DNA from: an uncultured Bryobacterales bacterium
GTDB lineage: Bacteria > Acidobacteriota > Terriglobia > Bryobacterales > UBA6623
Assembly: GCA_958295955.1 (NCBI GenBank)
Contig: OY282420.1
Location: 1,874,435-1,938,434 of the forward strand
Direction: 5' to 3'
Length of the DNA stretch: 64,000 bases
Part shown: positions 5,091 to 50,252 of the stretch, in pieces
Layout: every line of letters starts with the position of its first letter
Numbering within the stretch: the stretch's first letter is position 1
Made by a program: the position numbers and the translations under genes
Notes under the pieces: model-generated
Databases searched by the model: none
The model's input: the letters and a program-made list of their open reading frames with translations, nothing else
Told to the model about the DNA's origin: nothing

Positions 5091-6389
5091 CTATCCGGCG
5101 GCCTTGCGGTGGACCGCCATGATCGTCATGTCGTCGCCTTGCGGCGCGTCCTGGCAGAATCGCCCCACCTGCGCGGTAATGGTTTCGATCAGCTTCGCCG
5201 GCGGGAGTCCCCGGTGCGCGGCGGCAAGCTCATGCAGGCATTCCTCGCCGAATTCCTCGAATTGGAGGTTCATCGCTTCGCTGTAGCCGTCGCTGTAAAC
5301 CAGCAGCGTGTCGCCGGGGCTCATGCTCACTTGCGCGCGGCGGTAGGGGAACTGCGGCATGACGCCGAGCACGGGGCCGCCGACTTCGAGCAGCATCGGC
5401 CCGCGCTCGGCGGAGACCAGGATCGGGGGATTATGCCCGGCATTGCTGTAATCCAGAGTGTTGGTTGCGACATCGAGCACGGCGTAGAACATGGTCACGA
5501 ACTTGTCCGCGTCGGTGCTCTCGTAGAGCATGCGGTTCGAGTGTTCGACGCATTTGCCGGCATCCGGCGCCAAACGGCTCTGGCCGCGGATGGTCGCCTG
5601 CACGTTGGCCATCAGCAGAGAGGCCGTAATGCCCTTGCCGGAAACGTCGGCCAGGCAGAATCCCCAGCGCCCGCCGCCGAGCTCCAGAAAATCGAAATAG
5701 TCGCCGCCTACGCGCAACGCGGGCTGCGATTGTCCGGCAACTTCGTAGCCGGCGATCTCCGGCGGCGTCTTGGGCAGCAGCCGCATCTGAATCTCGCGCG
5801 CCAGTTGCAGCTCTTTCTGCAGATTCGCCAGCGCTTTCTCTTCTTCGGCAAGCCGCGCATTTTCGACGACCTGCGCCGATTGCGCGGCGATGATGCTCAG
5901 CAAGCGCCGGTCGCCCGCGTTGAAGACCGCGCCGTCTTTCTTGTTGAACACGTTGAGCACGCCGATCATGCGCCCCTTCAAGCGCAGCGGGACGCAGAGC
6001 AGCGATTGAATCTTGCGCGCCTCTTGGGGAACCCGAAACCGTCCGTCCGTTGCAAAATCGTTGACGATCAGCGGCTCCTGGTTTTTGAGCATCCAGCCGG
6101 TGATTTGATCGCCGAGGCGGTAGGGAATGACCTCGACCTCGGTATGCGCCTTGCGCACCATCGTCTTCAGCGCGGCGCCTTCGGCCTGGTTGTTGAACAG
6201 CAGCGCCGCGCCCTGCTCGACGTTGAGATGCTTGACGCACTTCTGGACGATCAGGTCGACGATGCGGTCGAGCGAGGAAGTGGACGAGACGGCAGAGGCG
6301 ACCTCGTTGAGTATCGAGAGCTCTTCGACGGCGCTCTTGAGCCGCGCGTTTTCCGCTTCGAGGCGCTTGATGCGAAGTTCAGCGTCCAT
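5091..6389 (-). CDS. GAF-domain PP2C (SpoIIE/RsbU-type) serine phosphatase
   Basis: A 432-aa cytoplasmic signalling protein. Residues 1-25 are a charged coiled coil, about 30-170 a GAF sensor domain, about 178-205 a second coiled coil of the kind that links sensor and output, and about 215-430 a SpoIIE/RsbU PP2C phosphatase domain. The phosphatase shows metal-binding motifs GGDYFD, LADVSGKG, SNAGHNPP and SDGYSEA, ending with GDDMTIM. Such enzymes usually dephosphorylate anti-anti-sigma factors and so control sigma factor release. No anti-sigma partner gene is adjacent, so the target is unknown. It is convergent with the ankyrin gene. Confidence 0.92.
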   Translation of the reverse strand: MDAELRIKRLEAENARLKSAVEELSILNEVASAVSSTSSLDRIVDLIVQKCVKHLNVEQGAALLFNNQAEGAALKTMVRKAHTEVEVIPYRLGDQITGWMLKNQEPLIVNDFATDGRFRVPQEARKIQSLLCVPLRLKGRMIGVLNVFNKKDGAVFNAGDRRLLSIIAAQSAQVVENARLAEEEKALANLQKELQLAREIQMRLLPKTPPEIAGYEVAGQSQPALRVGGDYFDFLELGGGRWGFCLADVSGKGITASLLMANVQATIRGQSRLAPDAGKCVEHSNRMLYESTDADKFVTMFYAVLDVATNTLDYSNAGHNPPILVSAERGPMLLEVGGPVLGVMPQFPYRRAQVSMSPGDTLLVYSDGYSEAMNLQFEEFGEECLHELAAAHRGLPPAKLIETITAQVGRFCQDAPQGDDMTIMAVHRKAAG

Positions 6390-6604
6390 TGCCGGAGCCG
6401 GGATTCAGGCAGGCCGCGAGAACCCGCTACAACCATGCTAGTTGTTTCGCCGCTCCGGCGGCGCGCCGCAGATCGGTTTTCCGCTCATGCCGCCGGCCGC
6501 GGCCACTTGAATTGCGACGGCATGCCGTTTGGTTTGCGACGTTGCGCCACCTGCATTGCGCTGCCGCGCCGGCGCCCGCGCGGCGGAGTGGAAAGCGGAG
6601 GGCC

Positions 6605-45959: not shown

Positions 45960-47000
45960 TCAGCGCCGTATCGCTTCCGGCGCCCGTTGGCGGTCGTGCT
46001 GCTCGAAATCCAACGTCCACTCCAGCGGCACGGATGCCGGCAAGTAGCAGATTTTGTCGTCGCATGCCTGGTACTTGAGAGACCCGCGCAAGGTCAAGCG
46101 CCCGTTGTCGTCGAGCAAGTGCTCGATCTCGTTGGGCTGTCCGATCATGACATCGGTCAGCAGGCGGAAGGAGCCTTCGTAAACGGGAACCGTTTCGTCG
46201 ATGGCGGGTAGATGAAGCTCCTTCGATGCGGGGTATTCGACATCGTAGCGGGTTACGCCGCTAACGTCTTCGACCTGCCAGTCGATCGGAATGTAGCCTT
46301 CGACTTGCGGAGCATAGACGTGCATTTTGGGGTTCAGGTCGATGTCCAGAACCAGCGAGAACCGGTTGCCGCCGCGAACGGCCGCGTCGCTTGCCCAGGA
46401 AACGACCCGCAGATGCGGCGTTTCCGCTACCTGCCGCGCGGCGCCGGTCTCGGCGCCCAACGTGCGGACCAGGACCCGGCCGGCGGTAAACCGGTCGCGA
46501 TAGTTGTCTTCGAAATACTTCGCGCGGACAACCCGGTCGGGGCCGATGAGGTACTCGCCGGGGATCGGCACGCCGAAAAACCGATGGGTTTCAGGAATCG
46601 TCTCATTGAGGATGCCGAACGCGCGGATGACCGCGGAATCGGGGTCCGAGAGGAGCGGATAGCCGATGCCCGCTCTAGCGGCGAAGTGCTTGAGAATCTC
46701 GACGTTGTCGTGGCTGAGAGCGGCGATGCGTACGCCCTGGGTTGCGAGTTCTTCGCGTTTGCGCTCCAACTGAACCAGTTGGCCCTTGCAGAACGGTCAC
46801 CAGTCGGCCGAGCGGTAGAACAGCAGCAGCAAGCCGTTCGGACCGGCGAGGCTTTCGAAGGTTCGTTTGGCGCCGGTCTGGTCGACCGCCTCGAACGCGG
46901 GAACCGTTGCGCCGACTGCGGGGCCGGTCGGCGGACCCGCCGCAACTAACGGCATGGATACCGCGCCGAATAGAAACGTGGACCGCAGCAGTGTTCTCAT
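45960..47000 (-). CDS. Selenocysteine-containing peroxiredoxin-like redoxin fused to a DsbD-alpha-like domain
   Basis: The gene reads as one 346-aa protein only if the UGA at 46797-46799 (codon 68) is decoded as selenocysteine. The frame before and after the UGA is the same and encodes continuous homology: FYRSADW-U-PFCKGQLVQLERK, a UxxC version of the redoxin CxxC/CPFC active site, then LLSDPDSAVIRAFGI and the rest of an AhpC/TSA-type thioredoxin fold. The signal peptide is MRTLLRSTFLFGAVSMPLVAAG, so it acts in the periplasm. Residues about 190-340 resemble the N-terminal domain of DsbD (SLKYQACDDKICYLPASVPLEW, with a C-x4-C pair). A hairpin of bacterial SECIS type follows the UGA. The product is likely a thiol peroxidase or reductase with its own redox partner domain. 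A nonsense mutation is the alternative. Confidence 0.82.
46766..46799 (-). promoter_or_regulatory. Candidate bacterial SECIS element with its UGA codon
   Basis: Downstream of the UGA (46797-46799) the mRNA reads CCAACTG-GUU-CAGUUGG, a perfect 7-bp stem with a GUU loop (46766-46782). The loop begins at nucleotide 22 after the UGA. Known bacterial SECIS hairpins lie inside the coding region with the apical loop about 16-37 nt after the UGA and a conserved G at the start of the loop, as seen here. SelB would bind this loop. Confidence 0.72.
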
Positions 47001-47109
47001 GGAAACTTCATTATGACGCAGGCGGCGGCATTGTCCAAACGGCAACCGCGCAAACCGATACAATAAGCGTTGCCGTCGAAACGACGCCCGCGCGGGCGTC
47101 GGGCCCCGC

Positions 47110-47199
47110 GGAGAGGTGGCCGAGCGGCTGAAGGCGCACGCTTGGAAAGCGTGTTTAGGGGAAACTCTAACGAGGGTTCGAATCCCTCCCTCTCCGCCA
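47110..47199 (+). tRNA. tRNA-Ser (anticodon GGA)
   Basis: A 90-nt class II tRNA with acceptor GGAGAGG/CCTCTCC, discriminator G and encoded CCA. The anticodon stem is CACGC/GCGTG around loop TTGGAAA, giving anticodon GGA for serine UCC/UCU. It has a long variable arm and T-loop GGTTCGAATCC. The accessory island starts directly downstream, which is typical of integration next to tRNA genes. I found no second copy of the tRNA 3' end at the far side. Confidence 0.97.
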
Positions 47200-47253
47200 C
47201 TCAATCGGTGAAACCCAGGGTTTGCCTTACGAGATTATTGGAGTCGAAAGTCG

Positions 47254-49509
47254 ATGAAAGACGCCCAGAAACCCGATCACGTCAGCCTCACCACGATTAT
47301 TGACCGCCTGCGAGACGGTCGGTACGTCATTCCGGACTTCCAGCGGGAGTTCGAGTGGACGCCCGGGGACATTCTCGAGCTTATGAGGTCAATCTTTCAG
47401 GACTATTACATCGGGAGCCTCCTGCTATGGAAGGGCAAGACCGACAATTTCGAGGCCCTCGCGTGCGAGCCGCTGCACGGCTTCAAGGGCAAGACTGACA
47501 AGACACATATTGTGCTCGACGGCCAACAGCGGCTGACTGCGATGCACTACGCCTTCCTCGCGCCCAATGTCCCGGCGCCGAACCGAAAAAATCGCTTCCT
47601 GTTCTTTGTTCTTGTGGACAAGTTCATGGAGGAAGCCTACGACGAGGCATTCGACTACTACTGGACCCGGCACGGAGAGACGCTACTCGCCGACAGGACT
47701 GCCCAGTTCGACGACCACATGTTCCCGCTGGCTGTCGTAGGTCAGGGCATTTTTGAGCTCTTCAACTGGCTCCAGGACTACGAAAAGCACTGGCGCGCCA
47801 AAGAAGGCGAAGCCAAGAATTCGAGCAACGAGGCCGCATGCCAAGCTGCAGGGCGCCATGCGGACAACGCTCATGCTTTTCGCAATCACTTGCAGAGCAT
47901 CATGCAGCAGTACCAGATTGCCTACATTGAGCTCGACCAGGATCTCGCGATCGACAAGGTGTGCAACATCTTTACGCAGATCAACAGCCGCGGTATTCGG
48001 TTAGACGTCTTCGACCTGATTAACGCGCTGCTCAAGCCAAAGGGTCTCCAGTTGAAACATCTGTGGCGCAAAGCTGCGCCGAAGCTCGACTTCGTCGAAA
48101 CCAAACGGATGAACGTTTACATCCTCCAGGTGATGTCGATCCTTCGTCAAGCCTATTGTTCGCCGAAATATCTTTACTATCTCCTCCCCGGCCAGGAGAA
48201 GAAGGTGCGCGATCCCGCCGGCTCGTTGCGCAAGGAAGTCCTGATCCCGGATGTTTCGGGATTCGAGCAGCGTTGGCATGAAGCCGTTGAGGCGCTTCGT
48301 CAGGCGATCGAGTTGCTGCGGCATCCCCAAGAATTCGGCGCGATCTCGTCCCAGCATCTGCCCTACGTCTCCATACTTCCGGTCTTTGCCGCCTTGCACG
48401 CCTCGGCTCGGTCGTTACCTGCTAACCACCGGCTCGGCGCCGGAGTCAAGCTCCGGCACTGGTACTGGGCCAGCGTATTTACGAACCGCTACTCAGGGTC
48501 AGTCGAATCCACGAGCACACGGGACTTTCTGGATCTGAAAAATTGGTTCCAAGACGACGACGCCCCGCCGCCGCTCATAGCCGAATTCAAGATGCGGTTT
48601 CGGAATCTCGATTTGCGGCGTGAAACCAAACGCGGGACCTCCGTGTACAACGGCATCTACAACCTGCTCATCCTGCGCGGCGCACAGGACTGGATGACGG
48701 GAGCGGCGCCTCAGTACGGCGGTCTTGACGACCATCACATCGTTCCGAAGAGTTGGGCGAAAGAACGCACGCTCGATACTTCGATTGACACGATTCTGAA
48801 CCGCACGCCGCTCACAGCAGAAACGAATCGGAAAATCAACGACCGTCTGCCAAACGAGTACCTGCCGGAACTGATCGCGGCGAACGGCGAAACCACGGTC
48901 CGCTCGACGCTCGAATCGCATTTCATTTCGCAGGCCGCGCTCGAGATCCTTCTGCGCAACCCTTTTACTCCTTCGGACTACGAGGATTTTCTCAACGTGC
49001 GCCGGCGCACGCTTCAGGAAGCTATCGAGGATTTGTTGGTGAAGGAACGTTTGGATCTTCCGCCTCAGCTTCGAGAGTTGGATGCCCGGATCGAAAAAAT
49101 CGAACTCGCGCTTCGAAAGCTGATTTGCGCGTCGCCGGCCGGCGACGCGGACAAGATCCCTCCTCATGTAATCCAAAAAGTCGAAGGACGAATTCAGGCG
49201 GCTCTCAAGAAGAATCCGGCGCTCGACGCCAATCACTACGCAGCACTCGAGGGCAAGCTTGAGTATGCCGACCTGCGCGAACTCCAAGATACGATAACGA
49301 GCAAAGCGCTCACCCCGATTTTCCGGTCGCGGTTTCCGCACAAGGAAACGCTTGTCAAACGCTTCGATCAGCTCTCCGAGCTTCGCAACGGCATTCGACA
49401 CAGCCGCACCGTGGATGACGTGACACGCAAGGAAGGCGAGGCAGCCGTTTTGTGGTTTGAGCAGGCGCTCGCTGCGTGTCCGCGGATTACAAACGCTGCC
49501 CCGGGATAA
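47254..49509 (+). CDS. GmrSD-type DUF262/HNH nuclease with C-terminal HEPN-like domain
   Basis: A 751-aa single-chain protein. An N-terminal DUF262 (ParB-like, GmrS) domain has IPDFQREFEW (about residues 28-37), and LDGQQRLTAMHYA near 88-100, where the DGQQR motif is the nucleotide-dependent catalytic centre. A central helical region follows. An HNH-type motif GGLDDHHIVPKSW lies near 489-502, with ILNRTPLTAETNRKI behind it (GmrD-like). The C-terminus (about 640-745) is helical and holds ELRNGIRHSR, an R711-x4-H716 motif typical of HEPN ribonucleases. GmrSD enzymes cut DNA with modified bases; the HEPN end suggests an additional RNA-targeting or abortive activity. GGAG precedes the ATG. It is the first gene after tRNA-Ser(GGA). 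Confidence 0.87.
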   Translation: MKDAQKPDHVSLTTIIDRLRDGRYVIPDFQREFEWTPGDILELMRSIFQDYYIGSLLLWKGKTDNFEALACEPLHGFKGKTDKTHIVLDGQQRLTAMHYAFLAPNVPAPNRKNRFLFFVLVDKFMEEAYDEAFDYYWTRHGETLLADRTAQFDDHMFPLAVVGQGIFELFNWLQDYEKHWRAKEGEAKNSSNEAACQAAGRHADNAHAFRNHLQSIMQQYQIAYIELDQDLAIDKVCNIFTQINSRGIRLDVFDLINALLKPKGLQLKHLWRKAAPKLDFVETKRMNVYILQVMSILRQAYCSPKYLYYLLPGQEKKVRDPAGSLRKEVLIPDVSGFEQRWHEAVEALRQAIELLRHPQEFGAISSQHLPYVSILPVFAALHASARSLPANHRLGAGVKLRHWYWASVFTNRYSGSVESTSTRDFLDLKNWFQDDDAPPPLIAEFKMRFRNLDLRRETKRGTSVYNGIYNLLILRGAQDWMTGAAPQYGGLDDHHIVPKSWAKERTLDTSIDTILNRTPLTAETNRKINDRLPNEYLPELIAANGETTVRSTLESHFISQAALEILLRNPFTPSDYEDFLNVRRRTLQEAIEDLLVKERLDLPPQLRELDARIEKIELALRKLICASPAGDADKIPPHVIQKVEGRIQAALKKNPALDANHYAALEGKLEYADLRELQDTITSKALTPIFRSRFPHKETLVKRFDQLSELRNGIRHSRTVDDVTRKEGEAAVLWFEQALAACPRITNAAPG

Positions 49510-49518
49510 AGGACTCCC

Positions 49519-49917
49519 TTGTGGGGTGTAGCGGGAAGCCGGCGGCCGCACAGGCAACCGATCGTCATCGGCCGCGGCCGAACGAGTCCGAGCGGCTTTC
49601 TCCGACGTCTTGTTCGAGATCAGGCCGGCAGTGCCGGCGAGCAAGCGCCGGAGCCGGAGCGCGAACGCCGGCGGCGGTTGTTACACGAGGTATTTCAAGA
49701 GATCTGCGCGACACGCGGCGGATTCAAGGCGCCCGACAATCTCGATTACGAGAGCCGTATGGCGCTTGAAGACAGAGCTATCGATGTCATTCTCAACCAC
49801 GAGCCAAGTTGGCAACGCACTCCGGCCGGTGGTCACGATGTTTTCCAAGGATTCCTAACAGCAACGTCCAGGCCGTCGAAATCCGCGGTATTTCGTGTTG
49901 CGACGGAAAGATCATGA
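49519..49917 (+). CDS. Possible small hypothetical protein after the GmrSD-like gene
   Basis: A 132-aa frame starts with GTG 9 bp after the GmrSD-like stop. Residues 45-108 have natural-looking protein composition (HEVFQEICATRGGFKAPDNL and onward to DVILNHEPSWQ), whereas the first 40 residues are arginine/proline rich and less convincing. The end overlaps the 3' end of the convergent VapC-like gene by 85 bp. No family is recognised. It may be a real downstream gene of the nuclease or a fragment of one. Confidence 0.35.
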   Translation: MWGVAGSRRPHRQPIVIGRGRTSPSGFLRRLVRDQAGSAGEQAPEPERERRRRLLHEVFQEICATRGGFKAPDNLDYESRMALEDRAIDVILNHEPSWQRTPAGGHDVFQGFLTATSRPSKSAVFRVATERS

Positions 49918-50252
49918 GCCTTCGCTGTTCCGGCGATTAGCGCATCGCCCAGATGTAGAACGCGGCCGGACCGATGCGCCTGCGCCCGAAGCAGGGCGGC
50001 GCACTCCGCCTCTCTGCGCTCAAGCGGCAGGATACGGTCCGCATACTCCGCGATGAACGCCGATAATGCCGCGCCTATCCGGTCGCGGCGGCGTCCTTGT
50101 GGAAGCAGCCGCAAACCGAACTCCAATTCATGCAGCACAATCGCCGAAAGCCACAGATCGTGTCGAACGGTCAGGAAGGCAACAACCTGCGGGTCCGGTA
50201 TGGCTTTGGTCGTCTCCGAAACCACGTTGGCGTCCAATAGAAAACCGTTCAT
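49833..50252 (-). CDS. vapC: VapC-family PIN-domain toxin
   Basis: A 139-aa PIN-domain ribonuclease. The acidic Mg2+ ligands are seen in LLDANVVSE (D7), LHELEFGL and HLGDALIAGTAKAHDLSVATRNTADFDGL. VapC toxins cleave tRNA or rRNA and are neutralised by a cognate antitoxin. Its ATG overlaps the antitoxin stop as ATGA, so the pair is translationally coupled. No frameshift is seen. Confidence 0.92.
   Translation of the reverse strand: MNGFLLDANVVSETTKAIPDPQVVAFLTVRHDLWLSAIVLHELEFGLRLLPQGRRRDRIGAALSAFIAEYADRILPLERREAECAALLRAQAHRSGRVLHLGDALIAGTAKAHDLSVATRNTADFDGLDVAVRNPWKTS

Follow-up and report, generated by a model that had tools for sequence, protein, structure and literature searches.

The gene described here lies on the minus strand of the window, by which we mean the whole 64,000-nucleotide stretch of DNA that was analysed, from the genome of an uncultured Bryobacterales bacterium. 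When TGA is read as selenocysteine (Sec), the frame running from 47000 to 45963 encodes a protein of 346 residues (MRTLLRSTFLFG...EAIRR), and the complete gene (45960..47000; 346 codons plus the stop) ends with its own UGA at 45962-45960, after codon 346. The internal, in-frame UGA (46799-46797) is codon 68 and stands in the peptide context SADW-U-PFCK. An earlier reading of this DNA, made from the sequence alone, had described this frame, the UGA and a hairpin downstream of it; on re-reading of the letters all of its coordinates were correct, the frame is continuous across the UGA, and the same UGA codon is kept in relatives. The sequence-only reading had also predicted that ordinary annotation would cut the gene in two, and mechanical ORF calling did give two pieces at the UGA, both on the minus strand: 45960-46769 (a 269-aa TTG ORF) and 46797-47204.

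The encoded protein consists of several recognizable parts, all coordinates being those of the minus strand. Residues 1-21 (MRTLLRSTFLFGAVSMPLVAA; 46938..47000) form a predicted signal peptide, identified by eye from its charged start, hydrophobic core and AxA-like end; the N-termini of relatives are similar, and confidence of the structural model is low over these residues. The protein is accordingly predicted, from this segment of its sequence, to be exported. Residues 29-160 (46521..46916) constitute an AhpC/TSA-Redoxin domain (Pfam PF00578, E = 8.4e-25), which contains (i) Sec68 (46797..46799), the N-terminal residue of a UxxC motif, (ii) Cys71 (46788..46790), which is likely to be the resolving partner of Sec68, and (iii) Pro147 (46560..46562). 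Residues 211-322 (46035..46370) match the DsbD_N domain (PF11412, E = 2.5e-10) and carry the motif C-x4-C (YQACDDKICY), composed of Cys313 (46062..46064) and Cys318 (46047..46049). Residue 68 (Sec or Cys), Cys71, Cys313 and Cys318 are invariant in alignment A1, which was built from whole-protein searches, and the three cysteines are likewise invariant in alignment A4. Since loci L051-L130 were collected by patterns that included YQACDD and DWCPxCK, which introduces a selection bias, and the set of 114 loci used below was filtered on the active-site motif, our statements on invariance rest on A1.

Both Pfam domains were found in 51 of 51 relatives (DsbD_N being matched at E values of up to 0.01), and an AlphaFold model of the two-domain protein has a pLDDT of 93.4 and a pTM of 0.87. 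It is nearly certain that the redoxin and the DsbD-alpha-like domain are fused on one chain. Just upstream of the start codon there is a promoter-like site, TGGACA-16-CATAAT (47010..47037, minus strand), which agrees with the consensus at 10 of 12 positions; this is a consensus match alone, and 0.3 such sites are expected by chance. The promoter and terminator scan gave this one promoter-like site and no terminator.

Selenocysteine decoding at codon 68

Homologues of the window protein were found in 57 of 100 related genomes, and most of the full-length matches hold exactly one in-frame TGA, while a few hold none. In a phylum-wide draw, a homologue was present in 58 of 396 genomes. Records that carry a name belong almost entirely to Acidobacteriota and range from Bryobacterales to Vicinamibacteria and Thermoanaerobaculia; some few of the homologue-bearing MAGs are labelled Gemmatimonadetes, Armatimonadetes or Acidimicrobiia. 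At codon 68, the 114 distinct loci that contain the active-site motif have TGA (98 loci), TGC (13) or TGT (3); homologues with Cys at this position, which the sequence-only reading had named as support for Sec, thus number 16. Mapped on a maximum-likelihood tree, these codons require at least nine Sec/Cys changes, seven of which are forced by well-supported branches.

The machinery for Sec incorporation is complete in the window's own genome, in which all four of selA, selB, selC and selD were found: a tRNA-Sec with the anticodon UCA (75.9 bits; cut-off 47), and SelA, SelB and SelD with scores of 518, 376 and 296 bits, respectively, each above its curated cut-off. SelB was detected in 37 of 38 relatives with a full-length Sec form, compared with two of five with the Cys form (Fisher P = 0.003); the sole Sec-form genome that gave no SelB match, G069, is a 610-contig assembly. 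We are highly confident that Sec is incorporated at codon 68.

The hairpin, CCAACTG-GTT-CAGTTGG, is exact at 46782-46766 (minus strand) and spans nucleotides 15-31 past the UGA, with its loop beginning at the 22nd. In the published model of the bacterial SECIS (bSECIS), the loop has 3-9 nt with a G in its first two positions, the stem 4-16 bp, the spacing 16-37 nt and the energy is at most -7.5 kcal/mol (PMC13188914); the hairpin agrees with each of these values (7 bp stem, GUU loop, 21 nt from UGA to loop, -8.6 kcal/mol). Folding of the lone 40-nt sequence revealed no unusual stability (z = -0.18), and a competing fold scores better than the hairpin (-11.4 vs -8.6 kcal/mol). Single-sequence folding was thus rejected as evidence for a SECIS, and the case made here is comparative rather than thermodynamic.

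The comparison of loci, in which the hairpin columns lie outside the homologue search patterns, gave the following picture. All five core pairs are formed in 96 of the 98 UGA loci, whereas resampling of synonymous codons (500 trials) produced a mean of 29 and a maximum of 41, and the GU of the loop is invariant in the UGA loci. Two of the pairs covary. In one, the wobble position of Gln74 pairs with the first position of Leu78 (G-C 72, A-T 23); in the other, the wobble position of codon 73 pairs with the first position of codon 79 (C-G 48, G-C 38), the latter codon specifying Glu or Gln in most rows. When the comparison was confined to 64 distinct sequences, the same two pairs were represented by G-C 40 and A-U 21, and by C-G 37 and G-C 17; two-sided changes occupied 46 cells, versus 19 in shuffles (none of 500 shuffles was as high), and sliding the partner column by one to three positions destroyed the signal. 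The core is intact in two of the 16 Cys loci, and the covariation is gone from them. The hairpin thus fits the published model, covaries in the UGA forms and is lost in the Cys forms; as judged from sequence comparison, it is the SECIS that the sequence-only reading had proposed. The coexistence of Sec and Cys forms amounts to a natural experiment, in which the SECIS decayed at Cys codons through at least seven well-supported changes.

Several further observations concern selenium use in these genomes. The window's own genome contains eight other matches to TGGTGACCNNNNTGY (W-U-P-x-C), of which seven were inspected and rejected, as none occurs in a redoxin context. Relatives carry redoxin paralogues that are shorter or more distant and contain a single in-frame TGA (for example G094:C66:55055-55555, G057:C3:88470-88970 and G012:C29:8590-9063); these are possibly additional UxxC selenoproteins that have no DsbD-like domain. 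A second copy in genome G007 (C330:3222-4154) has one TGA and one TAG, and the same genome also has a Cys copy; it is possible that this is a decaying Sec copy beside its Cys replacement. The SelD encoded at locus L166 (11097-13364, plus strand) forms a fusion with a pyridine-nucleotide-disulphide oxidoreductase, an architecture of the Ndh-SelD type already known from marine metagenomes.

Fold and catalytic register of the two domains

In a structure search with the redoxin part, the best matches were peroxiredoxins (BcpB, 5epf, Z 19.8; AhpE, Z 18.5); the search was led by the BCP/PrxQ-type, AhpE and typical 2-Cys peroxiredoxins, with ResA less close overall. In a profile alignment (5.5e-16), Sec68-P-x-C71 falls on W-C-P-H-C of a ResA variant, with Sec68 at the N-terminal Cys of the ResA CxxC. 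When aligned on AhpE, Sec68 occupies the position of the Thr of TxxC and Cys71 that of the peroxidatic Cys, while the position of Arg116, the catalytic Arg of AhpE (Ala in the R116A entry 4xih), is taken by the family-invariant Pro147. Because Sec68 stands at the Thr position and an invariant Pro at that of the Arg, the peroxiredoxin Thr and Arg are gone: the protein has the AhpC-TSA/Redoxin fold, but neither the catalytic Thr of PxxxTxxC nor the catalytic Arg. Pro147 would correspond to the cis-Pro of thioredoxin-type reductases. With a PF00578 domain and Sec as the first residue of UxxC, the protein agrees with the description of the Prx-like thiol:disulfide oxidoreductases (UxxC). No model of NCBIfam 20.0, those for peroxiredoxins included, reaches its cut-off for the window protein, and the SelL-related redox protein model (NF040769) gives 50.6 bits against a curated cut-off of 120.

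The sequence-only reading had left the choice between a peroxidase and a reductase. Since Thr and Arg are missing and UxxC is combined with a Pro as in thioredoxin-type reductases, the reductase is favoured, and the sequence makes it likelier that the redoxin domain would act as a thiol-disulfide reductase than as a peroxidase.

The same reading had assigned the C-terminal C-x4-C domain to the DsbD-alpha type, which is borne out by both profile and fold. The PF11412 score is 40.8 bits, above the Pfam gathering cut-off of 25, and when the C-terminal part was searched alone, the first eleven matches were N-terminal domains of ScsB and DsbD (Z 12.6 to 10.0; 12.6 for ScsB-N and 10-11 for nDsbD), followed by unrelated beta sandwiches at Z 9.7 and lower. 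The two redox cysteines that DsbD_N domains have on their catalytic hairpin are represented by the invariant Cys313 and Cys318, spaced by x4 (x5 in Escherichia coli).

In E. coli, electrons pass from thioredoxin through the membrane part of DsbD to its gamma domain, then to its alpha domain and on to DsbC, CcmG and DsbG (PMC7347389). The window's genome encodes a single DsbD, in which an alpha, a membrane and a thioredoxin-like domain are all present. It also contains, on the minus strand of locus L167 (about 5430-6400; G000:C1, about 808,430-809,400), a gene for a ResA/TlpA-like reductase (WATWCGPC), with a standalone DsbD_N gene (FQACDDKSC) immediately after it; this pair is apparently an unfused counterpart of the fusion. 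A further DsbD_N-like protein, standalone and secreted, is encoded on the minus strand of locus L166 (5386-5934), about 1.3 kb from selA; it scores 24.2, against the Pfam cut-off of 25.

Relation to known systems

Selenoproteins of the UxxC Prx-like kind have been known from metagenomes since the Sargasso Sea survey of 2005 (PMC1088965), and they appear in reviews as UxxC Prx-like or 'Redoxin family protein' selenoproteins (PF00578 or PF08534; PMC9312934, PMC13188914). The window protein resembles the Prx-like thiol:disulfide oxidoreductase selenoproteins in its AhpC-TSA-type domain and in having Sec first in UxxC, but as listed in these reviews such proteins comprise the redoxin domain only, the entries mentioning no DsbD-alpha-like second domain. 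Among the selenoprotein fusions described in the GOS survey is one of Prx-like 3 with Unknown_3, the latter with three conserved Cys including a CxxC (PMC2398784). As far as that description goes, both this fusion and the window protein join a Prx-like UxxC domain to another domain that has conserved Cys; unlike Unknown_3, with its three Cys and CxxC, the window protein has an invariant C-x4-C and a recognizable DsbD_N domain.

The second domain resembles the alpha domain of DsbD/ScsB in its fold (6c29, Z 12.6, for ScsB), its Pfam assignment and its paired redox cysteines, but it is joined to a redoxin and not to a membrane electron-transfer domain, and its Cys spacing is x4, in contrast to the x5 of E. 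coli DsbD (C103 and C109; PMC7347389). TsoB (NF045694), a bacterial selenoprotein resembling a Rhodanese/DsbD fusion, also has a DsbD-like part, but there Sec lies within the x4 motif (UxxxxU) and the partner is a rhodanese (PMC13188914), whereas the window protein has a redoxin as partner and only Cys in its x4 motif. Like ResA/TlpA/CcmG, the redoxin domain has the register W-[U/C]-P-x-C and, in the later loop of the active site, a Pro. ResA, TlpA and CcmG are single-domain Cys proteins which receive electrons in trans. AhpE and the BCP/PrxQ peroxiredoxins provide the closest solved folds, and differ in the catalytic Thr and Arg that are not conserved here. We found no literature on a UxxC redoxin fused to a DsbD-alpha domain, the Unknown_3 fusion being comparable by its description only. 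Selenoproteins of the UxxC redoxin kind are established, and we found no earlier report of their fusion with a DsbD-alpha-like domain.

Proposed electron route and alternatives

These comparisons lead us to propose the following route. On the comparative evidence, SelB and tRNA-Sec read the UGA at 46799-46797 as Sec, directed by the hairpin 15-31 nt downstream. In the exported protein, Sec68 would attack an oxidised substrate of the cell envelope (a protein disulfide or a related oxidised thiol), and Cys71 would resolve the intermediate, leaving a selenenylsulfide. This bond would be reduced, either intramolecularly or from one subunit to another, by Cys313-x4-Cys318 of the fused DsbD-alpha-like domain, which the membrane DsbD of the genome would in turn recharge through its gamma domain. 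The route from DsbD gamma through the fused domain to Sec68-Cys71 is inferred from homology and domain order. It is, in our judgement, fairly probable that the protein is an exported UxxC reductase which receives its electrons in cis from its DsbD-alpha-like domain, and it may be likened to a reductase of the ResA/TlpA type that carries an electron donor of its own. The wider proposal, of a self-contained selenium relay, old and widespread, in the acidobacterial envelope (DsbD gamma, fused alpha-like domain, UxxC selenenylsulfide, undescribed substrate), we consider evenly poised between right and wrong.

The most serious competitor is a Sec peroxidase, in which Sec68 or Cys71 would reduce H2O2 or organic peroxides and the DsbD-alpha-like domain would serve as a built-in reductant. 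Sec suits peroxide chemistry well, the domain scores best as AhpC-TSA, its closest folds are peroxiredoxins of the BCP/PrxQ-type, AhpE and typical 2-Cys groups, and Cys71 lies where these enzymes have the peroxidatic Cys. However, Sec/Cys itself stands in place of the catalytic Thr and an invariant Pro in place of the catalytic Arg, and the window protein does not attain the cut-off of any NCBIfam peroxiredoxin model, which makes this reading unlikely, although it deserves attention.

We regard it as still less probable that this redoxin receives its electrons from elsewhere, and that the DsbD-alpha-like domain serves another partner, works in the oxidising direction or merely docks the protein to DsbD. 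The alpha domain of E. coli DsbD does serve several partners (PMC7347389), and sequence does not tell which way the electrons flow; against this stand the retention of the fusion across the phylum, with all four redox residues invariant, and the two-gene counterpart in the same genome. Finally, UGA is by default a stop codon and the window is assembled genome sequence, so that two genes, a pseudogene or a sequencing error might be suspected; but 98 distinct loci, drawn from numerous assemblies, share this UGA and keep the same frame before and after it, the covarying SECIS is lost in Cys forms and the Sec machinery is complete, and a real stop is hardly credible.

If the preferred reading, an envelope reductase with its donor attached, is correct in the form of the relay, the gene represents a selenoprotein architecture not described before, whose donor and Sec catalyst have evolved together on a single chain. 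With this locus, a large phylum with few cultured members gains a widespread selenoprotein architecture, encoded by a gene that would be annotated as two fragments. The function of the UxxC Prx-like class is largely unknown, and the fusion points to a likely electron donor; because it names this donor, the donor hypothesis for the class becomes testable.

Comparison of neighbourhoods across the phylum revealed no conserved neighbour gene that would point to the substrate; neighbours such as nusB are common to close relatives only. Beside the selenoprotein gene, a tRNA-Ser (GGA) is located at 47110-47199 (plus strand), directly followed by a GmrSD_N-type restriction-like gene (47254-49509, plus strand), and the DNA adjoining this tRNA gene is possibly foreign in origin. 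A VapC-like PIN-domain protein is encoded at 49833-50252 of the window (minus strand).
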